Positions 1 through 9,902 of a stretch of 64,000 bases of DNA are shown here, one piece after another (positions within the stretch are counted from its first letter, which is position 1; every line of letters starts with the position of its first letter). The notes beneath the pieces are model-generated. The model did no database searches and was not told the DNA's origin. It was given only the letters and a program-made list of their open reading frames with translations. Source of the stretch: Sneathiella chungangensis (GTDB lineage: Bacteria; Pseudomonadota; Alphaproteobacteria; Sneathiellales; Sneathiellaceae); NCBI RefSeq assembly GCF_009882935.1, contig NZ_WTVA01000002.1, positions 186,001 through 250,000 of the forward strand, in the 5' to 3' direction. The position numbers and the translations under genes were made by a program.

Positions 1-1037
1 AGATAAACGACGACATGGCCGTTGGCGGCGACAACGAGTTCCGCATTTTCATGCTTGAAACGGCCGAGAGCTGTCCGCTTCTTCGGAACAGAGTCCGGAT
101 TTTCGGGATCGATCTCGACCACATATCCGAATCGGTTCGGCTCGTTGGGATTCTTGCTGATATCGAAACGCTCGTCGACGCTGGCCCAGGCGTACCCCCA
201 GTCCTTATTGCCGACGCCATAACGCTTCAGGGCATCGGACGGCGTGTAATTTTCATCACTGCTCGAAAAATATCCGTTGAAATTTTCCTCGCAGGTCAGA
301 TAGGTGCCCCAGGGCGTCCGCCCGCTACCGCAGTTATTCCAGGTGCCGAGCGCTGTAGCGCCGTCCGGATCAGCCGCGGTTTTCATCATGTCGTGTCCGC
401 GCGCGGGACCGGATATGTCCATCGGCGTATTGGCGGTGATACGGCGGTTATAGGGGCTATCCTTGACGATGCCCCATTTCCCGTCTGTTTCCCGGATTTC
501 CGCAATGGTGACGCCGTGACCGGCCATTCCCTTTAGGACGTCGTCCGCAGTCTCCGGTTTTTTGCTCGCCCGGTTGCCATAGATAATGCTTCGGTTGACA
601 TATTCGTTGTTGGAGGCAAGGACCAGCTTTTCATCAATCTCGAAAAGCACCATGCCGTCATTATTATCTCCGACCGCCAGCAACTGGCTTTCCGCCGTGC
701 CGCGGGTCACGGGATCGAAGGGGAGGCTGTTTGACCACAGCGGATCGCCCCACATGCTCACCACATGCCAGTTGTAGTTTTCAGGAACTGTAACGGTGTC
801 CTTGTTGTTGGCCTCGACCCCGCTGAAATCCTCCGGAAGGAAGGTACAGCCGGCAAGGCCGGTAAGCGAGGTCGTTCCCATGACGAACGCGGCGGCGCCA
901 AACTTTGCCCCTTGCCCGAGGAATCTGCGCCGCGAGAGGACCGTTTGCGAAATTTTCTGAAAATCAGTTGCGCCATCACGCGGATAATGGGTGTCGTCGA
1001 ATTCATCAAAGGAAATTTCATCTTCCGATGCGGACAT
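1..1037 (-). CDS. PhoX-family (DUF839) phosphatase, 3' end cut by window
   Basis: The visible 345 residues are the N-terminal half or so of a PhoX-type alkaline phosphatase, an exported enzyme that releases phosphate from organic phosphoesters using iron and calcium. A twin-arginine motif (SRRRFLG, residues 35-41) followed by a small hydrophobic stretch predicts Tat export, as known for PhoX. Family-like stretches include GHDMMK and CEENFNGYF. The ATG at 1037 has an AGGAGG ribosome site just upstream. The C-terminus lies outside the window, so completeness of the active site cannot be judged. A Cys in LAGC after the signal could be a lipobox, but Tat cleavage is equally possible. No Pho box was recognised in the 140 bases upstream. 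Confidence 0.85.
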   Translation of the reverse strand, partial: MSASEDEISFDEFDDTHYPRDGATDFQKISQTVLSRRRFLGQGAKFGAAAFVMGTTSLTGLAGCTFLPEDFSGVEANNKDTVTVPENYNWHVVSMWGDPLWSNSLPFDPVTRGTAESQLLAVGDNNDGMVLFEIDEKLVLASNNEYVNRSIIYGNRASKKPETADDVLKGMAGHGVTIAEIRETDGKWGIVKDSPYNRRITANTPMDISGPARGHDMMKTAADPDGATALGTWNNCGSGRTPWGTYLTCEENFNGYFSSSDENYTPSDALKRYGVGNKDWGYAWASVDERFDISKNPNEPNRFGYVVEIDPENPDSVPKKRTALGRFKHENAELVVAANGHVVVY

Positions 1038-1177
1038 AAGGGGCCTCCTGGCAAATCGTCTTTGTTGCAATATGGCTTCACACTTGTGAAGCCGTCCCGA
1101 GTCCCTTCTTACTGGCGGCAGATTGCAAAATTGTGTCATACATGCGGGCCAAGACGCTACCCGTGATGAGGATTTTT

Positions 1178-2023
1178 TTACCGGCTGCGCGCCGAGCCAC
1201 TTTCCGCAATATCGAGGGCTTTCGTAGGATCGTCCTTGAGGTCGGCTTCTAGAAACGATCTGGTCTCCGGAATGGCGATATGAAAGTCCGTCTCGAAATG
1301 CACCTCCGCTGACAGTTTTGCGGCGTTGAGATCGAGAAGATGGCCGCCTTTCGTCTTATCCTCCGAAATGAAATGAAGATGATAACCGGCGACATTCAAT
1401 GTCTTCGCATATGTCGGCGTCCAGAAGCCGACAAGGGTGCCCGTGATATTTTCGAAGCTGAACTCACTCTGATGACTGGTGGCCGTTACAAGGTCTTCCC
1501 CCGGCGCCGCCTTGCAGGCCGCGCGGAGGTCGATCTTGTCGAAACGCCCCTGAAGGCGGAAGCCGACAAAGATATTATCTGACGGCCGCAATTCGTCGAG
1601 TGTCTGTTTCAGGGTTTCAATTGACGAAATGGCAAGCAAATCCTTGGTTATATCCGCGTCAAACCGGGTAATGGTGGCAAAGGGCACGAACCACCCGTCC
1701 TCTGCCTCGCGGGTGACGCCGTCATCCGTCGCCTGATAGCAGTGTCCATCAAGCATGATGAGTTCACCGTCAAGCCCGTCATAGGTGCCAAGACCGAAAT
1801 CGCCATGGGTCTTCAAATCGCCGACGGTCATGCAACCCTGGTACACGCCTTTGACCAATGCGCCGCTTGTGGACACCTGAAAAAGAGAATGATGCTCCAG
1901 CCCGAAGGCCGAGGCAAGGGCGTCGCGCACCACATGCGAAAGACTATGCCCTGTACGTTCGGTCTCCGCATGCAGGGCGTCCCACAGGGTTTTGGAGATA
2001 TGGCACTTCAGTTGATGGGTCAT
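1178..2023 (-). CDS. budA: Alpha-acetolactate decarboxylase with ribbon-helix-helix-like N-terminal extension
   Basis: Converts alpha-acetolactate to acetoin and CO2. The enzyme core spans about residues 48-265. The metal-binding pattern is clear: H215 and H217 in GYHLHF, and H228 in KGGHLL, with the spacing of known decarboxylases; E87 in DGELIMLDG is a likely active-site acid. At 281 residues it is longer than usual, because residues 1-42 form an extra segment: a short strand (LKCHIS), a helix (KTLWDALHAETERTG) and a second helix (SLSHVVRDALASAFGL). That is the arrangement of Arc/CopG/MetJ DNA-binding proteins. The ATG at 2023 has GGAGG upstream and lies 9 bases after the acetolactate synthase stop, so the two form an operon. 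Enzyme identity is firm; DNA binding is inference. Confidence 0.9.
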   Translation of the reverse strand: MTHQLKCHISKTLWDALHAETERTGHSLSHVVRDALASAFGLEHHSLFQVSTSGALVKGVYQGCMTVGDLKTHGDFGLGTYDGLDGELIMLDGHCYQATDDGVTREAEDGWFVPFATITRFDADITKDLLAISSIETLKQTLDELRPSDNIFVGFRLQGRFDKIDLRAACKAAPGEDLVTATSHQSEFSFENITGTLVGFWTPTYAKTLNVAGYHLHFISEDKTKGGHLLDLNAAKLSAEVHFETDFHIAIPETRSFLEADLKDDPTKALDIAESGSARSR

Positions 2024-2032
2024 ATTGCCTCC

Positions 2033-3682
2033 TTAATGTCCGGCATTCGGGTCGGTCGCGACGAAGAGTTCCATATTGTCGCTATAATCGACAGGCATGT
2101 GAACGAGAACAGGGCCTTCATCTGCGAGTGCCTGCTGCATTATCTCGTCAAATTTCGATGAGTCGTCGAGTCGATACCCCGTCGCCCCGAAAGCCTCCGC
2201 AAATTTTACGACGTCGTAATAGCCGAGGTCGACGCCTGAGCGGCGCTTGTATTTCATCAACTGCTGTTCCAGCACCATGTCATAGTTGCCGCTATCCCAG
2301 ACAAAGAGGATGAAATGCAGCTTTTCGCGCACCGCGGTTTCCAGCTCCGTCGCGCTGAACAGAAAGCCGCCGTCGCCGACAGTTGCGAGCACGGTTTTCT
2401 CAGGGTGCGCCAGTTTCGAGGCCATTGCCCAGGGAAGCGCAACTCCAAGCGTCTGCTGCCCGTTACTGATCAGGAGCTGGTGCGGAACATGACTCAGGAA
2501 ATAACGGGACATCCACATGCCGTGGGTGCCGATGTCACATGCGACAATGACATTCTCATCCAGATATTCATGCAGCTGGTGGATAAACCGCAGCGGGTGG
2601 ATCTTGCCCTTGCATTCCGTAAGGGCCTTCGGATTGACGAGATAATCTTCATATTCCTTGCGGACGTTCTTATGCTGGTCCATGGGCGGCATGTCCACGA
2701 GCATGGGGATCAGCGCGCGTATATTTTCCGCGACGCCGCCCAGCAACTCGACATCGGTTTGATAGGCAAGATGGATATCGGACATGACGTGATCGATATG
2801 GATGATCTTCTTGCGATCGCCTGAATTCCAGATTTCCGGATCATACTCCACCGCGTCATACCCGATGGTGATGACGACATCCGCCTGCCGCAGAATCTTG
2901 TCTCCGGGTTGATTGTTGAACAGGCCGACGCGACCGAAGAAGAGATCGAGATATTCCTTGCAGACGACACCGGCGGCCTGAAAGGTCGATACGACCGGGA
3001 TCTTATGCGCCGTCAACAGGTCGTGGACGGCTCGGGCGGCTTTGGGTTGAGAAGCTTCTTCGCCCAGCAACAGAACCGGCGATTTTGCTCCGGTGATGAT
3101 TGCGGCAGCCTTTTCCAGCGCCGCATCCGATGCCTTGCCCGCATAATCTATCTCACCGGCTTCGATGACACCCGCATCCGTTTTTTCGTGGGAAACGTCA
3201 ACCGGCAAGCTCAGGAAACAGGCGCCGCGCCGCGGCGCCATGGCGATCCGAAAGGCGTTGACGATCGCCTCCGGTATTTCGTCGGCGAGATAGATTTCCT
3301 GGCTGGACTTTGTCGCGCCTTCCATCAGCTTGACGTTCTGTGCCGCCTGATGGGAGGCCTTGTGCAGCATTCTCCGCGAGACATTGCCGCCGATGGCGAC
3401 CACCGGATCGCCTTCTGTCGTCGCGGTAAGCAGGCCGGTCAGCATGTTGCCGACGCCCGGCCCAGACGTTACGAGCACGACGCCGGGCTTTCCTGTGAGA
3501 CGGCCATAGGCGGCGGCCATGAAACAGGCGTTCTGTTCGTGCCGGCATAGGATCAGTTTGATGGGAGAGTCCAGAAGGGCATCAAAAACGGCATCTATCT
3601 TCGCACCGGGAATGCCAAAAACGAATTTCACGTCAAGAGATTCAAGGCATTTTACAAGTAGTTCCGCACCGTTTCTCGTCAT
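2033..3682 (-). CDS. alsS: Acetolactate synthase, catabolic type
   Basis: Thiamine-diphosphate enzyme that condenses two pyruvates to acetolactate. At 549 residues it has the usual three domains: pyrimidine-binding N-terminus with catalytic E49 (RHEQNACFMAAAYGR), a central Rossmann domain, and a C-terminal PP-binding domain with GDGGFLFSATELETA near residue 437 and the downstream NYDM segment. The adjacent decarboxylase argues for the catabolic acetoin route rather than branched-chain amino acid synthesis. No small regulatory subunit follows, also typical of the catabolic type. An anaerobic or acetate-responsive promoter would be expected in the 267 bases upstream, but I could not identify one. 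Confidence 0.93.
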   Translation of the reverse strand: MTRNGAELLVKCLESLDVKFVFGIPGAKIDAVFDALLDSPIKLILCRHEQNACFMAAAYGRLTGKPGVVLVTSGPGVGNMLTGLLTATTEGDPVVAIGGNVSRRMLHKASHQAAQNVKLMEGATKSSQEIYLADEIPEAIVNAFRIAMAPRRGACFLSLPVDVSHEKTDAGVIEAGEIDYAGKASDAALEKAAAIITGAKSPVLLLGEEASQPKAARAVHDLLTAHKIPVVSTFQAAGVVCKEYLDLFFGRVGLFNNQPGDKILRQADVVITIGYDAVEYDPEIWNSGDRKKIIHIDHVMSDIHLAYQTDVELLGGVAENIRALIPMLVDMPPMDQHKNVRKEYEDYLVNPKALTECKGKIHPLRFIHQLHEYLDENVIVACDIGTHGMWMSRYFLSHVPHQLLISNGQQTLGVALPWAMASKLAHPEKTVLATVGDGGFLFSATELETAVREKLHFILFVWDSGNYDMVLEQQLMKYKRRSGVDLGYYDVVKFAEAFGATGYRLDDSSKFDEIMQQALADEGPVLVHMPVDYSDNMELFVATDPNAGH

Positions 3683-3899
3683 AATATTTCCTTACCCTGT
3701 TGACCTGGATTTCTTACGTCGATCTGAAGCTGCTATTTTTCAAGGCACTTTGATAAAATGACAAGAGAAAAATCCAATTTTTATTCTACTTAAAATTTTC
3801 AGGTATTTCCAGGTCACCCCGCTCTCTGAAGCAAAGGCGTGCCGGATTTTGCCGGTTCGGCGATTTTGCGCGCTTTTTCTCCTGCGCCGAGGAAACTCT

Positions 3900-3927
3900 T
3901 TGACATGGCAGGAAATCCCTATATATT
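3900..3927 (+). promoter_or_regulatory. Sigma-70-type promoter of tRNA-Thr
   Basis: TTGACA at 3900-3905 and TATATT at 3922-3927 are separated by 16 bases. The -10 box ends 22 bases before the tRNA. This is one of the best matches to the housekeeping promoter consensus in the window and sits where a tRNA promoter should be. Confidence 0.75.
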
Positions 3928-3949
3928 CCGCCGCGCATCAACCCAAATC

Positions 3950-4024
3950 GCCGCCGTAGCTCAGGGGTAGAGCACTCCCTTGGTAAGGGAGAGGCCGGTG
4001 GTTCAAATCCACCCGGCGGCACCA
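3950..4024 (+). tRNA. tRNA-Thr (anticodon GGT)
   Basis: A complete cloverleaf can be folded. The acceptor stem GCCGCCG pairs with CGGCGGC, the D-arm contains CTCAGGGGTAGAGC, the anticodon arm is CTCCC-TTGGTAA-GGGAG with anticodon GGT (threonine), and the T-arm is GGTGG-TTCAAAT-CCACC. The discriminator A and the CCA end are encoded (4021-4024). Confidence 0.97.
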
Positions 4025-4139
4025 TCACCTTGTGTTAAACCGTTATTCTTGCGATCCTGTGGGGGGGCGTTGCTTGTCATTGCCGTTTTTGCAGGTCCGG
4101 TTGCGCCAATCACATGTCCGTCTTTCAGGGTGAGGCTTT

Positions 4140-4685
4140 ATGCGAAAATATCTTATTCCGTTACTTATCGCCGTCGGGATCGGACTTGTCGGCTGGGTTG
4201 GATATGACTATTCAAGAAGCGGCGAGCAGATTGCGGCTTTTAACCTTGACGGCAGTGAAGGCAGTACGGATCTGATCAAGCTTGATCCGTCGATGAATCC
4301 GCTGCGGGCAATCCTGACAGTCTCCTATGAAATAGAGCTGTTGAAGGGAACTTCGGCGGCCTTTGACTATGATATCCTGATGGCTGGACTTGGGGGAGTG
4401 GAGGTTTTTGCGGCGCAAGGTCAGCAGCGCGACAAACGGGACGACAATACACCGGAATATGCGACGAAATCTTCGGAACTGGTCATAAAAACATTTGCCG
4501 TTCCGGTTCCCGGGGAGTATTTGCTGGATTGGCGGATTGCTCCGGTTGAAGCGAAAATTCTCGGTCAGTCGATCTCGCTTCGGCGGAATGTGGAACCTCT
4601 TAGGGTCGCGTTCCTGATACCGGGCGTTCTTAGTCTTGCGCTGGGCTTCTTTTTGCTGATCCGGAGCAAGCGCAAGGGGCGTTGA
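4140..4685 (+). CDS. Membrane-anchored protein of unknown function
   Basis: A 181-residue protein with a hydrophobic segment at the N-terminus (about residues 4-24) and a second near the C-terminus (about 154-174), ending in a basic tail (RSKRKGR). The loop of about 130 residues between them would face the periplasm if the basic tail is cytoplasmic. I recognise no catalytic motif or family. It begins about 115 bases after the tRNA and runs in the same direction as the DUF1737 and LysE genes that follow. It could be a small envelope protein; the assignment as a real gene rests on its length, plausible topology and genomic fit. Confidence 0.7.
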   Translation: MRKYLIPLLIAVGIGLVGWVGYDYSRSGEQIAAFNLDGSEGSTDLIKLDPSMNPLRAILTVSYEIELLKGTSAAFDYDILMAGLGGVEVFAAQGQQRDKRDDNTPEYATKSSELVIKTFAVPVPGEYLLDWRIAPVEAKILGQSISLRRNVEPLRVAFLIPGVLSLALGFFLLIRSKRKGR

Positions 4686-4708
4686 TTTCTATTGCGTGAG
4701 GCGGCAGT

Positions 4709-4900
4709 ATGACGGATGAAAAACCTGGTTACCGGTTGCTGACTGGCGAAGATACCCATGACTTTTGCGTTCGCGTCAGTAAGGCGCTTGCGGAAGGTTA
4801 TGTGCTGTACGGATCTCCGGCGGCGACATTTGATCCCAACACCAACCGCATGCTGGTCGCGCAGGCGGTTGTCCGCCCTGATTTTCCAAAATCTGACTAG
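4709..4900 (+). CDS. DUF1737 family small protein
   Basis: This 63-residue protein matches the DUF1737 pattern: a short domain with YRLLTGEDTHDFCVRV followed by L-x-x-GYVLYGSP and a C-terminal MLVAQAVV strand. Members are small soluble proteins of unknown function, often with one copy per genome in proteobacteria. It lies only 3 bases before the LysE exporter start, so the two are probably translated from one message. No functional link between them is known to me. Confidence 0.8.
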   Translation: MTDEKPGYRLLTGEDTHDFCVRVSKALAEGYVLYGSPAATFDPNTNRMLVAQAVVRPDFPKSD

Positions 4901-4903
4901 AAA

Positions 4904-5536
4904 ATGCTGATCGAACCTGGTCCGCTTGGTCTGTTTGTCCTCTCGGCTCTGGCGCTCAACCTGACGCCGGGGCCGGATATGCTTTTTACGACCGCCAGCG
5001 GCCTCAAGCAGGGGCCGCGCGCCGGTGTCGTCGCCGCCCTCGGGATATCTGCCGGCTCAATGGTTCACATTCTCCTCGCGATCATCGGCGTTACGGCAAT
5101 TTTTAAAACATCGGAGCTTGCATTCGACATCCTCCGCTTTATCGGCGCGGGATATCTGCTCTGGATCGGGATACGAAGCTTCTCCGCCCGCGGCGGCGAC
5201 CTCAGCCGTCCACATGTAAAACCTGCCGGCCTGATGACCGTCTTTCGGCGCGGGATGTTCACCAATATATTCAATCCCAAGGTTGCGTTATTCTTTATTG
5301 CCTTCCTGCCGCAGTTCGTGTCGGTGGACGCGGGGGCAATTCCCCTACAGATTCTGATATTGGGGCTTTTGTTCAATGTGACCGGATTGCTGTGCAACGG
5401 AAGTGTCGGATTGTTTGCCGGTGGGGCCGGGCGGATCCTGTTGCAACGGCCGTCAGCCGCGAAATGGATTTCAAGAATTTCGGGGTCGATTTTTATCGGT
5501 CTCGCGGTTCGCCTCGCGCTGACGGAGCGGGCATAG
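4904..5536 (+). CDS. LysE/RhtB-family amino acid exporter
   Basis: A 210-residue inner-membrane protein of the LysE/RhtB family, which exports amino acids or their analogues. The family signature NLTPGPDMLF is at residues 19-28, followed by GLKQGPRAGVVAALGIS in the first loop and about six hydrophobic segments. Length is normal for the family. The substrate cannot be told from sequence; homoserine, threonine, lysine and leucine exporters all look like this. No LysR or Lrp-type regulator, which often neighbours such genes, is visible nearby. Confidence 0.88.
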   Translation: MLIEPGPLGLFVLSALALNLTPGPDMLFTTASGLKQGPRAGVVAALGISAGSMVHILLAIIGVTAIFKTSELAFDILRFIGAGYLLWIGIRSFSARGGDLSRPHVKPAGLMTVFRRGMFTNIFNPKVALFFIAFLPQFVSVDAGAIPLQILILGLLFNVTGLLCNGSVGLFAGGAGRILLQRPSAAKWISRISGSIFIGLAVRLALTERA

Positions 5537-5648
5537 CGCTGCCGTCCTGTGCCGGGCTGCTGATATAAGTACATCTCGTATTGGACTAATGGATTTAAAG
5601 TTGTAAAAATCCCTTCGAGGTTGGGTTAATCTATATGAAGGGCCAATC

Positions 5649-6311
5649 ATGTCCGACACTATTTTGGTAATTGGTAACAAGAGATATTCGTCCTGGAGCC
5701 TGCGGGGCTGGTTGGCGGCCAGGCTGTCGGGACTGGATTTCACGGAAGTTCTGGTGCCGCTTTATCGCGCGGATACGCCAGAGCGGCTGAAAGAGGTCAA
5801 CCCGAAGGCGCCGCCGAAAGTGCCGTCTCTGCTCATAGGGGACAACGCGATATGGGATACGCTTGCCATTTGTGAATATCTCGCGGAACGGTTTCCCGAA
5901 GCGAAGCTTTGGCCGGAAGATACGTTCACACGCGCGCATGCGCGCTCCGTCGTCGCAGAAATGCATTCGAGTTTTGCGGCCCTTCGTGACCATATCCCCA
6001 TGGATCTTTCGAAGCATCTTGCCTATGAGGCGCAACCTGCCGATGTGGCCGCGGATATCGCGCGGATTTGCGAAATCTGGCGGCAATGCCGCGCTGACTA
6101 TTCGGCAGCCGGGCCGTATCTGTTCGGACAGATTTCAGTGGCCGATGTGTTCTTCGCGCCTGTACTTGTACGGTTTCACAGCCGTTCAATCCCGCTGGAC
6201 GATGTGTGTCAGGCTTATTTTGATACTCTCTGGGCGTTGCTGGAGTTCGTCGACTGGCGGTCCGCGGCGGAGAAAGAGGAATGGGTTATCACGGATTATG
6301 GTCCGAAATAA
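5649..6311 (+). CDS. Glutathione S-transferase family protein
   Basis: A 220-residue protein with the thioredoxin-like N-terminal domain (about 1-80) of glutathione transferases and an all-helical C-terminal domain. The N-terminal NKRYSSWSLRGWLA carries serine residues where the glutathione-activating residue sits. PPKVPSLL contains the cis-proline and WDTLAICEYLAERFP the glutathione gamma-glutamyl-binding Asp/Ser-like segment. It probably conjugates or isomerises small electrophiles in the cytoplasm; the substrate is unknown. Its last 23 bases overlap the 3' end of the convergent cyclase gene. Confidence 0.88.
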   Translation: MSDTILVIGNKRYSSWSLRGWLAARLSGLDFTEVLVPLYRADTPERLKEVNPKAPPKVPSLLIGDNAIWDTLAICEYLAERFPEAKLWPEDTFTRAHARSVVAEMHSSFAALRDHIPMDLSKHLAYEAQPADVAADIARICEIWRQCRADYSAAGPYLFGQISVADVFFAPVLVRFHSRSIPLDDVCQAYFDTLWALLEFVDWRSAAEKEEWVITDYGPK

Positions 6312-7539
6312 TCTCCGGCCAGGCGGGCGTTAGCACCTCAATCGGATTTTTAAGTCCTGAGACGGATTGCGGCGGAAAGCGTCGCCAGTCTATCGTCACC
6401 TGGTCCGCTACGGAGGAGGAGACAAGAAGCTTGACGTTCAGCTTCTTCGTCAAATCCTGAAGGCGGCTGGCCATATTGACGGCGGGACCAATGACGGAGA
6501 AATCGAGCCGTTCCCGCGCGCCGATATTGCCGAACATGACGTCGCCGTGATGAATGCCGATGCCGAATTTCAGTTTTGCCGCGTCGGAGGGCTGATTGGC
6601 CAAAGCTTCCGCGCCTTTCCGCGCGGCATTGAGTGCCCGTTGCGCGGCGTCCGAAATAGCGGTTCCGTCCATCGTCGGAAAAATGGCGAGAAAACCGTCG
6701 CCCATGAATTTAAGCACTTCGCCGCCTTCGGCCATGACGGCCTCCGCCATGGATTCGAAAAACTGGTTGAGAAGCGCGAGGTAGGCCGGCATTTCAAGCT
6801 GATCGGCGAGGGCGCTGGATCCCCTGAGATCGCAAATCCAGATAACGGCCTGAATAACATCGCCATCGCCGCGCTGATGTTTTCCTTCCATTATCTGATG
6901 GGCCGCGGCGGGTCCAAGATAGGCGCTGAGGACGTCATGGAGGGTTTGCTCCCGCTTGAAAATGCGTGCGGCGACAAAGAAAAGCGAAACGAGACGGCGT
7001 AGGGCCGCTATCTCTTCCTCGGTGAAACCGCCCTGCTGGTCCGTAAGCCAGGACGCTATTATCCCATCCTGCTGTTTTAGCGCATTTTCCTCATTGCCAA
7101 ACGGGCTGAGGAACGCAATGTAGTCGGTGCCGCCATCTTCCGCGAACTTCGAGAAAATTGGATATCTTTCCACGACGTCCGGCCGCGTCAGGTCGCATCG
7201 GTATTCCGGTAGCGTGTTGGCGAGCATATGAAAGAGAGGACTTTGCGTCCAGTTTGGTTCGGCTATCAGCGTTCTTGGCCGGGAACTGGTGCTGAGCTCC
7301 CCGGTCCGGTGCCAGGTATGATCGGTATTATCAATAAAAGGATGCATCTGGCGCATGGTCATATGCGAGCGGAGCAGCGGAAACAGCGATTTATCAATCT
7401 TCTGGCTGAATTTTGAAAAAATGTCAGTCAGTAAAACATCACCAAGCATGCTGTGAATAAGCCAGCGTTCGATCTCTTTAACCGCGTTATCGAGATCACG
7501 CGAACGCACAGAGGCGTCGGCAGCGTTATTAATCGCCAC
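6289..7539 (-). CDS. Class III adenylate/guanylate cyclase
   Basis: A 416-residue protein whose C-terminal half (from about residue 225) is a class III cyclase catalytic domain. Both metal-binding aspartates are visible, in WICDLRGSS (about residue 235) and KFMGDGFLAIFP (about 278). The Lys before MGDG and the Asp in DFSVIGPAVNMASR (about 343) are the residues that favour adenine; the transition-state Asn and Arg lie in the same segment. It is therefore probably an active cAMP-forming enzyme. Residues 1-220 have no transmembrane segment and belong to no family I recognise; they may be a cytoplasmic sensor. Convergent overlap with the glutathione transferase. Confidence 0.88.
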   Translation of the reverse strand: MAINNAADASVRSRDLDNAVKEIERWLIHSMLGDVLLTDIFSKFSQKIDKSLFPLLRSHMTMRQMHPFIDNTDHTWHRTGELSTSSRPRTLIAEPNWTQSPLFHMLANTLPEYRCDLTRPDVVERYPIFSKFAEDGGTDYIAFLSPFGNEENALKQQDGIIASWLTDQQGGFTEEEIAALRRLVSLFFVAARIFKREQTLHDVLSAYLGPAAAHQIMEGKHQRGDGDVIQAVIWICDLRGSSALADQLEMPAYLALLNQFFESMAEAVMAEGGEVLKFMGDGFLAIFPTMDGTAISDAAQRALNAARKGAEALANQPSDAAKLKFGIGIHHGDVMFGNIGARERLDFSVIGPAVNMASRLQDLTKKLNVKLLVSSSVADQVTIDWRRFPPQSVSGLKNPIEVLTPAWPEIISDHNP

Positions 7540-7607
7540 GGCGGTGGTTATCCTTTCCCTGTTTTCCTCTAGGTAGGCAAATGCCGTCCTAAATACAAGA
7601 GAATGCC

Positions 7608-7627
7608 CGCCGAAGACAGGTTCGGCG
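7608..7627 (-). terminator. Hairpin downstream of PEBP gene
   Basis: CGCCGAA (7608-7614) and TTCGGCG (7621-7627) form a perfect 7-bp stem with a 6-base loop, 14 bases past the PEBP stop codon. There is no good T-run after it on the minus strand, so it may only be a weak terminator or an mRNA 3'-end stabiliser. Confidence 0.35.
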
Positions 7628-7640
7628 AGACGTATTTTTG

Positions 7641-8279
7641 CTATGCCGGTACGTCCGGGTTGAGGCTGTAGGTGCCAACATAGGATCCGCTTGCAAGGAT
7701 ATGCCCTTCCATCGCAGCGAGGGCCTCCGGCCCGCCAAAATTACCCGATAGGCCAAGGCTTTCAACGTCAAGCGCATAAACCGTGAAATGATAATGATGC
7801 ACGATGCTGTCGTTCCAGGGCGGGCAGGGGCCATCGTACCCGCCATAGGTGCCACCCATGTCCGGATCGCCGGCAAACCAGTCCGTATAGTTGTTGACGC
7901 CCGTCACCCCATAGGCCCGCTTGCCGGGCGCCTTGCCCTTGGGCGTAATGCCGTCACTGACTTCTCCTTCCGCAAGATTGGAATATTCAACGGGTATATC
8001 CACCTGGACCCAATGATAGAAATCGACGCGCGGCAGGCTGGCGGGTACGGTTTTACCTTCCTGATTGACATCCTCACCGCTGGAAGGCACATCAGGATCG
8101 TGGCAGATAATGGCGAAAGATTTCGTGCCTTCCGGCGCGTCCGACCAGCTGATCGCAGGGCTCTTGTTGTCGCTGAGTGCAACATGGCCTTCCTCTGCAG
8201 GGACACCGAAGGCAAATCTTCCCGGTATTTCTGCACCGTTTTCCCATCCGTCGATCTTCACTTTCAATGTGGCCGTCAT
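7641..8279 (-). CDS. PEBP / YbhB-YbcL family protein
   Basis: A 212-residue member of the phosphatidylethanolamine-binding protein (Raf kinase inhibitor-like) family. The ligand-pocket signatures are present: HDPDVPS near residue 60, then YDGPCPPWNDSIVHHYHFTV in the C-terminal half. No signal peptide is seen, so it is probably cytoplasmic, unlike some periplasmic YbcL proteins. At 212 residues it is longer than the roughly 160-185 residues of E. coli homologues, because of an insertion around the VNQEGKTVPASLPRVDFYH segment. Biological role in bacteria is poorly known. The ATG at 8279 has AAGGA upstream. Confidence 0.88.
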   Translation of the reverse strand: MTATLKVKIDGWENGAEIPGRFAFGVPAEEGHVALSDNKSPAISWSDAPEGTKSFAIICHDPDVPSSGEDVNQEGKTVPASLPRVDFYHWVQVDIPVEYSNLAEGEVSDGITPKGKAPGKRAYGVTGVNNYTDWFAGDPDMGGTYGGYDGPCPPWNDSIVHHYHFTVYALDVESLGLSGNFGGPEALAAMEGHILASGSYVGTYSLNPDVPA

Positions 8280-8351
8280 GATCTTTCGTCCTTCTTTTTA
8301 TTCTGGTAAGCGCGGGCAAGTTTATCAAAGCCACCGTAACAGGTAAATGAC

Positions 8352-9902
8352 TTAGGGCCGGAAATAGAAGGAGACAGGCCCTTTCAGACTTTCAAGCTGC
8401 GGCCCAATCCAATCGATCCATTGGCAGAGCGCGGGACGTGTTTCACGTGGATCAATGATGTCATGAATGCTGAAGCTTTCGGCGCGCGGAAAGGGTGATT
8501 GCTGTGCCGCCAGCTGTTCTTCCAGCTCCGCGCGCAGCTGTTCCGGATTGTCGGATGCTTCTATCTGGCGGCGAAAAGCGACTGCGACGCCTCCTTCGAC
8601 CGGAAGCGGCCCCATTTCCGCGCTGGGCCAAGCCAGCACATATCCGTTTTCGCTGAAATGCGCGGCTGCGGCGACGCCGAAAGCCTTCTTCACGATGATG
8701 GTTGCCCAAGGGACGACGGACATGGCAGCCGCCGCCACGGCTGAGGTGCCATATTTGATGGTGCCGTCTTTTTCCGCGTCCGGCCCGATCATGAAGCCCG
8801 GCTCATCCGTGAAATTGACAATGGGGAGGTGAAAGGTGTCGCAAAGTTCGATGAAACGGCGGACCTTCTGTGCGGCATTGGCGCCCATTGCGCCGGCGTA
8901 GTATCGGCAGTCATTGGCGATCACGCCGACGCTCTGGCCGTCGAGCCGGGCGAAGGCGGTGATAAGGCTAGGGCCATAGTTTTTGCCCATTTCAAAAAAG
9001 CTGTCTCGATCCACAACCATTTGGACGAGATTTCGCATTTTGAAGGGGAGCCGCCGGTTTTTCGGAACGATGCTGAGTAGATCCTCGTCCATTCTGTCTG
9101 TCGGATCGTCGGAGCTAAGGCGTGCCGGCAATTCCCAGACATTGGCCGGGAGATAGCTTAAAAATTTCCTGATTTGCGCAAGGGCATCCGCTTCATCTTT
9201 CGCTATGTTGGCGGCGACGGCATTCCGGCTGTGAACCGATGCGCCGCCAAGGTCTTCTTTACTAATCTTGATATTGAGCGCCCGTTCGACGAGAGCCGGC
9301 CCTGCGATAAGAAGCTGCGCTGTCTCCCGTGTCATAACGGAAAAATGCGAGGCCGCGAAGCGCGCGGCAGGAAATCCGGCAACCGGCCCAAGAGCGGCGG
9401 AGGCAACCGGCACCTCGCCCATCAGTTTCGCAATGGAGAGGAACCGGGGTTTCTCGTAGGCGGGACTACCGACAGTTCCGCCGCCCTTGCCTTTCGCGAC
9501 GCTGCCACCGCCCCCTTCGAGCATTCTGACAAGCGGTACACGGTATTGCGACGCGAGTTCTTCCGCAAATACGCTTTTTCTTAGTCCTGCCGCATTGGGG
9601 GAGCCGCCTTTCAAGGTAAAATCTTCGCCGCCGACGGCAACGCGCCGTCCGTCGATCAATCCGAGACCGGTGATATAGTTGGCAGGGGAAAAATTCTTTA
9701 GATTGCCATTCTCGTCCCGTTCCGCCGCTCCGGCAATCCGTCCTTGCTCCTGAAAACTTCCTGTATCAAGAAGACTGTCGATGCGTTCCCGGATGGTGAG
9801 GCGGCCTTTCGCATGCTGGATCTCAATTGCCTCTTTGCCGCCCTGCGCTTGCGCGGCGACGCGCATTTTTTTTATTTCTTCGGCTTCCTTTTCCCAGCTC
9901 AT
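8352..9902 (-). CDS. Acyl-CoA carboxylase carboxyltransferase (beta) subunit
   Basis: A 516-residue carboxyltransferase with the two tandem crotonase-like domains of propionyl-, methylcrotonyl- or geranyl-CoA carboxylase beta subunits. The N-terminal domain includes KGRLTIRERIDSLLD and GGSPNAAGLRK; the C-terminal domain includes FTDEPGFMIGPDAE and WPSAEMGPLPVEGG. It would transfer a carboxyl from biotin to an acyl-CoA. The start at 9902 (MSWEKE) is chosen over upstream in-frame codons because it has GGAG upstream and matches the family N-terminus; the longer frame would overlap the TetR gene. No biotin carboxylase/carrier subunit gene is near, so it must partner with a subunit encoded elsewhere. 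Substrate unknown. Confidence 0.9.
   Translation of the reverse strand: MSWEKEAEEIKKMRVAAQAQGGKEAIEIQHAKGRLTIRERIDSLLDTGSFQEQGRIAGAAERDENGNLKNFSPANYITGLGLIDGRRVAVGGEDFTLKGGSPNAAGLRKSVFAEELASQYRVPLVRMLEGGGGSVAKGKGGGTVGSPAYEKPRFLSIAKLMGEVPVASAALGPVAGFPAARFAASHFSVMTRETAQLLIAGPALVERALNIKISKEDLGGASVHSRNAVAANIAKDEADALAQIRKFLSYLPANVWELPARLSSDDPTDRMDEDLLSIVPKNRRLPFKMRNLVQMVVDRDSFFEMGKNYGPSLITAFARLDGQSVGVIANDCRYYAGAMGANAAQKVRRFIELCDTFHLPIVNFTDEPGFMIGPDAEKDGTIKYGTSAVAAAAMSVVPWATIIVKKAFGVAAAAHFSENGYVLAWPSAEMGPLPVEGGVAVAFRRQIEASDNPEQLRAELEEQLAAQQSPFPRAESFSIHDIIDPRETRPALCQWIDWIGPQLESLKGPVSFYFRP

Follow-up and report, generated by a model that had tools for sequence, protein, structure and literature searches.

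The aldC gene and its product

The window, by which we mean the whole stretch of 64,000 nucleotides analysed from Sneathiella chungangensis, carries on its minus strand an acetolactate decarboxylase (ALDC) gene whose product is predicted to begin with a ribbon-helix-helix (RHH) domain. The features of this locus, in window positions, are as follows.

1178-2023, minus strand: aldC (budA), encoding an RHH-ALDC fusion of 281 residues (open reading frame list and profile matches)
1235-1885, minus strand: ALDC core, residues 47-263 (Pfam match to PF03306; Foldseek matches of the full-length model, 4bt2 and further ALDCs)
1340-1381, minus strand: presumed metal-binding histidines H215, H217 and H228 (alignment to 4bt2; invariance among ALDC cores)
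1898-2023, minus strand: RHH domain, residues 1-42 (hhalign to CopG/Arc/PutA/NikR, column shuffles and structure matches)
1904-1942, minus strand: RHH helix 2, residues 28-40 (AlphaFold2, 1-46 model; the full-length model gives 28-39)
1952-1993, minus strand: RHH helix 1, residues 11-24 (AlphaFold2 models)
1997-2014, minus strand: putative DNA-contacting ribbon strand, residues 4-9 (QLKCHI, outward Q4, K6 and H8; strand and facing predicted from alignment with the CopG strand)
2033-3682, minus strand: alsS, coding for the catabolic acetolactate synthase; codirectional with aldC and separated from it by 9 bp on the upstream side (presumed operon; NF006378)
3683-3949, no strand assigned: upstream region of the presumed operon as far as tRNA-Thr, the expected place of an operator (inverted-repeat test on the 125 bp nearest alsS)
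3735-3764, minus strand: promoter-like TTGTCA-18-AAAAAT, a block partly conserved in three Sneathiella species (consensus scan and conserved columns; putative function)
3950-4024: tRNA-Thr, the far limit of the alsS upstream region

The Pfam family PF03306 matches residues 47-263 as a full-length core (E 8.3e-75, 251.3 bits against a cut-off of 25) and the equivalog TIGR01252 is passed with 235.2 bits (cut-off 180.65), in agreement with the first-pass annotation, which had named the 1178-2023 reading frame an acetolactate decarboxylase; the frame lies on the minus strand. The alsS product scores 724.6 bits with the AlsS equivalog NF006378 (cut-off 510). The zinc histidines that had been noted in the enzyme core are present: H215, H217 and H228 align with the HxH...GGH motif of solved ALDCs and, together with E87 and R167, are invariant in all 81 cores aligned, fused (29) and unfused (52) alike. 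We take these to be the metal and catalytic residues of the ALDC active site. E253, a Glu in 28 of the 29 fused cores, was left out as a hallmark because it is Glu in only 8 of the 52 unfused ones. In its whole core, its presumed metal and catalytic positions and its operon with alsS, the protein resembles canonical ALDCs (AlsD/BudA, PF03306, TIGR01252). Residue 170 in window numbering, just after the invariant Arg167, is typically C in the fused group (22/29) and P in unfused cores (44/52).

The N-terminal domain

According to the first-pass annotation, the residues before the decarboxylase core follow the strand-helix-helix plan of Arc/CopG/MetJ DNA-binding domains. Searched alone, the window segment gives a weak match to the Pfam family RHH_1 (E 0.21-0.22, 12 bits, under the cut-off of 20.5). 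An alignment (A4) was built from the 19 distinct N-termini among 29 fused ALDCs, the other ten, near-copies from one genus, being omitted. Taken singly, seven of the 19 match RHH_1 at E<=1 and the best one, that of an Ancylobacter relative, is over the cut-off (21.4 bits, E 2.4e-4); four of the 19 match an NCBIfam RelB-like antitoxin model (best 1.7e-5), and RHH_1 matched none of the eight unfused ALDC N-termini tested. The profile of the 19 N-termini was aligned by hhalign with a profile of four RHH sequences (CopG, Arc, PutA and NikR) at a probability of 96% and a pairwise E-value of 4.5e-9 over 40 columns, with an observed score of 39.3 and none of 200 column shuffles above 13.8. When searched against PDB sequences, the profile of the first 10 N-termini ranked unrelated chains, tRNA-dihydrouridine synthase among them, above CopG (E 0.91); enlarging the profile to 19 rows brought CopG to first place, but at an E-value of 0.041. 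As judged from these sequence comparisons, residues 1-42 are an RHH domain fused to a complete ALDC, the pooled profile being decisive and the single sequence unconvincing. The predicted strand-helix-helix plan is borne out in this pooled form, and the proposed HMM assignment to RHH families holds for the pooled profile and the Ancylobacter sequence but not for the window segment alone.

The AlphaFold2 model of residues 1-46 has a pLDDT of 85 and the two helices listed above, whereas the full-length model reaches a pLDDT of 63.5 with values below 50 in the ribbon region; conclusions on the RHH domain therefore rest on the 1-46 model and the profiles. DSSP assigned no strand to residues 1-10 of the monomer models, and a two-stranded ribbon needs a dimer. 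In a Foldseek search of the PDB with the 1-46 model, the first 13 rows are chains of CopG, MatP, VapBC, Arc, NikR and StnY, which presumably share one fold, with probabilities of 0.90-0.97 and modest E-values of 0.13-0.33, the chain being very short; the non-RHH PilF GSPIIB appears lower, at ranks 42 and 44-47. In the VIA list PutA, CopG and Arc come first, with modest Z-scores of 5.6-5.9 (below 6), the top row being the PutA RHH 2ay0_C (Z 5.9, rmsd 2.5 over 44 residues) and CopG and Arc being tied at 5.8. For this model, the recurrence of one fold along the whole length in the upper Foldseek rows counts more than the modest E and Z values.

The domain is similar to the CopG, Arc and MetJ repressors in its strand-helix-helix order, its length of about 42 residues and its profile and fold. 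Those proteins, however, are stand-alone repressors or antitoxins, whereas RHH-ALDC continues into an enzyme and its DNA binding is putative. With the full-length model, Foldseek listed ALDCs (4bt2 and others) first, followed by the PPC protein 2dt4 and the similar 3hwu and 3htn, pointing to a relationship between the ALDC fold and PPC/DUF296 proteins. Plant AHL proteins join a DNA-binding AT-hook to a PPC domain. The likeness extends to the plan alone, since PPC proteins are distinct from ALDCs and AHL proteins contact DNA through an AT-hook.

Distribution and constraint of the fusion

We found 29 fused ALDCs, which come from alphaproteobacteria and one actinomycete-labelled MAG. PF03306 is present in 4 of 24 genomes of the window's own genus, Sneathiella, and all four ALDCs are fused. 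In family f66 it is found in 15 of 75 genomes (13 fused, 2 distant matches set aside), in the order of G534 in 14 of 397 (9 fused, 4 unfused, 1 distant match aside) and in an even draw of Alphaproteobacteria in 11 of 385 (4 fused, 6 unfused, 1 distant match aside). A draw across the phylum gave 12 of 398 genomes, the window's own being the sole member of the fused group. In the phylum to which the actinomycete-labelled MAG belongs, PF03306 was present in 36 of 346 genomes and loci were available for 30, among which that MAG alone is fused, 28 are unfused and one (L072) ends at a contig edge before the N-terminus. The survey of N-termini leaves out the distant matches (L022, L036, L037 and L106), L072 and the six actinomycete-phylum matches without loci. 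ALDC matches on plasmids came to 171 records, and from the best 40 of these, which were listed, the Ancylobacter one was taken in: the budA gene of its plasmid pB (L012) is likewise fused, in the order aldC-alsS. Some of the other listed plasmid alignments extend into residues 1-32, and a plasmid-borne fusion such as that of Ancylobacter is a possible route for patchy spread.

The 81 ALDC cores were placed in a tree after removal of the RHH columns. The 29 fused ones lie on one side of a branch with an SH-aLRT of 94, in a tree that was made by a quick method, in which the separating branch is not starred and for which no root was inferred. A single fusion event with later patchy loss and horizontal transfer would agree with such a tree. 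The pN/pS ratio of the 43-44 N-terminal codons is 0.07 (core 0.15) in a 12-genome set in which aldC and alsS are divergent, 0.29 (core 0.21) in the four Sneathiella and 0.58 (core 0.32) in five genomes of one genus (f252), indicating that the RHH domain is under purifying selection, stronger than on the enzyme core in one lineage and weaker in two. Helix 2 and the first core motif (FQVST) are equally far apart in all 29 fused proteins, which suggests a rigid junction.

By eye, little precedes the core in the unfused ALDCs of the survey other than a short helix or a signal peptide, with the exception of L046. Many of them (L006, L007, L008, L016, L020, L023 and L052-L056) begin, by eye, with N-termini that resemble signal peptides or those of lipoproteins, so that a secreted or periplasmic location seems to be common for ALDC outside the fused group. 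The ALDC of the window and its relatives is most likely a cytoplasmic enzyme. L046 (G559) is an ALDC of another clade, with the core start SLYVSAP, whose N-terminus looks RHH-like by eye (LPDSLRQSLALRAQATGESPALILEQMLRRGL) and may be a second fusion; RHH_1 did not match this N-terminus, and ALDC was found in none of the 73 other genomes of its family.

Gene neighbourhood and a possible regulatory role

Wider flanks, usually 2-5 kb a side, were read for 26 fused loci; flanks are short in L112 (only 3 and 992 bases) and, on one side, in the window, L087 and L108 (0.8-1.2 kb). alsS adjoins the fused aldC in 19 of the 26 loci in three arrangements. aldC comes after alsS in eight (three of the four Sneathiella, L084, L086, L108, L110 and L112), before it in two (L012 and L107) and divergent from it in nine, all of one genus, where the presumed start codons are 89-91 bp apart in the 12 cases measured. 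The remaining seven loci (L082, L011, L109, L111, L113, L114 and L115) have no neighbouring alsS. Among 13 chosen fused genomes, AlsS exceeds the curated cut-off in six, and in all six it neighbours the fused aldC (about 0.7 kb apart in G1343/L108); none exceeds the cut-off in the other seven. The four f252 loci without alsS beside aldC (L109, L111, L113 and L115) belong to one genus, whose five genomes all lack an AlsS over the cut-off.

In LysR-controlled alsSD/budABC operons, alsR or budR lies alongside, whereas the flanks seen revealed no LysR gene in 25 of the 26 fused loci; the one detected, in L082, is 3.3 kb off. The profile used was built from this L082 protein and matches in family f199, which we take to be of enterobacterial type. 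Within about 1.5 kb of the ALDC gene, a distance that stops short of the far side of alsS where alsS comes first, LysR genes accompany 0 of 29 fused and 7 of 52 unfused cores, all seven in f199 (7/7 loci). The absence of LysR is thus confounded with phylogeny, as just 7 of 52 unfused cores have one and these are from a single family. The literature describes a divergent LysR gene as frequent in canonical acetoin operons and a LysR-type alsR divergent to alsD in Acetobacter pasteurianus (PMC8148554).

Inverted repeats that might serve as operators were compared with column shuffles in four sets (divergent, Sneathiella, L107/L012 and f252). Equally good repeats arose in 60 of 200 shuffles for 12 divergent alsS/aldC intergenic regions, in 110 of 200 for the 125 bp nearest alsS in three Sneathiella species and in 175 of 200 for the L107/L012 pair. 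The f252 repeat was matched by 1 of 200 shuffles but was rejected as an operator, since by eye it overlaps the 3'-terminal coding part of the gene before it. All 12 intergenic regions of the divergent set share an unchanged stretch of 17 bp (GCTCCGCTCTCGATTCC), which was not taken as an operator because it covers the presumed alsS ribosome-binding region. With few close genomes the power of the test is low, so its result speaks neither for nor against an operator. Rfam at gathering level over window positions 1-9000 gave the tRNA alone, and PADLOC gave no match.

The putative contact residues of the ribbon vary by lineage. The outward positions are Q-K-H/R and Q-N-R in Sneathiella, R-T-E in the divergent set, R-T-H in Ancylobacter and H-H-R or V-N-K in f252. 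The third of them (column 8) is K, R or H in 10 of the 19 distinct N-termini, D or E in six and S or T in three, and it is acidic in 16 of 29 once the ten near-copies of the divergent set are counted. An acidic residue is unusual in a DNA-contacting ribbon. Judging from the residues alone, the variation fits co-evolved binding sites, but also a loss of DNA binding in the acidic lineages.

The closest parallel is PutA (trifunctional, type C, of E. coli and Salmonella), in which an N-terminal RHH and an enzyme form one chain and whose RHH is among the top fold matches here. In PutA this domain on a metabolic enzyme represses the protein's own genes, and for the PutA of Rhodobacter capsulatus, which lacks an RHH, control falls to a distinct protein, PutR (PMC5293562). 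PutA differs in being an unrelated flavoenzyme of about 1300 residues with membrane switching; in RHH-ALDC the RHH is joined almost directly to the catalytic domain, and regulation is proposed by analogy. To our knowledge, few enzymes control their own genes by means of a fused DNA-binding domain, and where that domain is an RHH the standard example is PutA.

The proposal set out here starts from the fusion with its RHH fold and homology, the single tree group, the constraint, the gene linkage and the LysR-free flanks in 25 of 26 loci. We suggest that an ALDC, mostly in alphaproteobacteria, acquired an N-terminal RHH DNA-binding domain, probably in a single event, and has retained it since. 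The protein would most likely be PutA-like, with two chains pairing via the RHH ribbon; a precedent is the dimer able to bind DNA that resulted when the E. coli PutA RHH was attached to an RHH-less PutA (PMC5293562). The paired RHH would bind near the aldC promoter, and near the alsS promoter where the genes are linked, and tune transcription; the ALDC body, at a fixed distance from RHH helix 2, may allow substrate occupancy or enzyme level to modulate binding. RHH-ALDC would then stand in for AlsR/BudR, the LysR-type regulator that canonical acetoin operons encode as a protein of its own. Dimerisation via the RHH, DNA binding, the operator position, ligand sensing and the sign of regulation are all steps that we infer. 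Because of the PutA plan and the ALDC fold shared with PPC proteins, DNA binding with autoregulation is taken as the likeliest function, and we give it about an even chance. The fuller reading, in which a single-origin RHH-ALDC is a one-piece, acetolactate-responsive regulator of alsS/aldC that has replaced LysR, is held tentatively.

The first-pass annotation had suggested a trigger enzyme that senses acetolactate and represses its own alsS-budA operon. The architecture, the PutA parallel, the linkage to alsS (19/26) and the scarcity of LysR neighbours make a trigger enzyme plausible, and no operator stood out. An alsS-aldC operon is supported as well, but repression of alsS cannot be the general rule because an AlsS over the cut-off is missing from seven of the 13 fused genomes. 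Counting against autoregulation are these seven genomes, the lack of an inverted repeat better than shuffles in three of the four sets, the lineage-dependent outward residues with their sometimes acidic column 8, the confounding of LysR absence with phylogeny and, in two of the three lineages, a weaker constraint on the RHH domain than on the core.

The main rival reading is that the RHH persists as a module for dimerisation or stability, with DNA binding lost at least in the acidic-ribbon lineages, and this we regard as doubtful. ALDC is itself a dimer without an RHH, and little need of such a module would therefore be expected. The acidic contact column (six of the 19 distinct N-termini, or 16 of 29 if near-copies are counted) and the failure to find a usable operator in the four sets searched would suit a dimerisation module, whereas the outward residues of Sneathiella, most f252 and Ancylobacter are basic or polar like those of DNA-binding RHH proteins. 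The acidic divergent set is the one most constrained in its RHH, which shows that the domain has a function but not which. Adding the E. coli PutA RHH to an RHH-less PutA gave a DNA-binding dimer with unchanged catalysis (PMC5293562), and in that the dimer formed and the kinetics stayed the same this, too, favours the module.

Alternatively, RHH-ALDC may bind DNA with its main targets elsewhere, for example at branched-chain amino acid genes, which share acetolactate, or at pathways beside an alsS-less aldC. The seven fused genomes without AlsS over the cut-off would be accommodated in this way, as would contact residues that vary as if sites differed, and the alsS-less aldC follows a SCO1/SenC gene in L113 (Pfam) and L115 (by eye), among the four of five f252 loci listed, and a CitMHS transporter gene in L082. 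We nevertheless consider such targets unlikely, given that AlsS over the cut-off, where present, is a neighbour of the fused aldC in every one of six genomes. A docking role of the N-terminal domain, for example with AlsS as the partner that hands over unstable acetolactate, is very unlikely; the alsS-aldC linkage in 19 of 26 loci would agree with docking, but RHH homology points to a DNA-binding fold and the domain persists in genomes without AlsS over the cut-off. A wrong start codon, with the first 42 codons an untranslated leader read in frame, was ruled out and is hardly credible: the window segment's own Pfam match is under the cut-off, as such an artefact would allow, but amino-acid conservation with pN/pS below 1 in three lineages, the invariant spacing and the 29-member group oppose it, and the segment, whose widespread absence from close homologues the annotation had named as a refutation, is kept in all four Sneathiella with the gene.

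Should RHH-ALDC indeed bind DNA and regulate its own gene, it would be the second natural case after PutA of an RHH making a metabolic enzyme the regulator of its own gene, and would explain how these alphaproteobacterial acetoin operons run without a neighbouring AlsR. An enzyme of 281 residues with a known core structure and an RHH at fixed distance would be a far simpler system for crosstalk between catalysis and DNA binding, and a ready-made acetolactate sensor for acetoin and butanediol engineering. We found no report of an RHH-ALDC fusion in the full-text literature searched, a scope that excludes most subscription papers and all bioRxiv preprints; in the paper that names both ALDC and RHH, the terms stand apart and RHH refers to PutA. 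The earlier remark that no case had been described is upheld for ALDC in the literature searched, but not for RHH-fused autoregulatory enzymes, PutA being known (PMC5293562).

Other neighbours were recorded in passing. The f252 aldC genes of the listed loci lie near genes for SCO1/SenC, DUF1697 and, by eye, thiM/thiE. A PhoX-type alkaline phosphatase gene (PF05787) follows aldC in L009 (4994-6889), and the same kind of protein is seen by eye at window positions 1-1036 on the minus strand.
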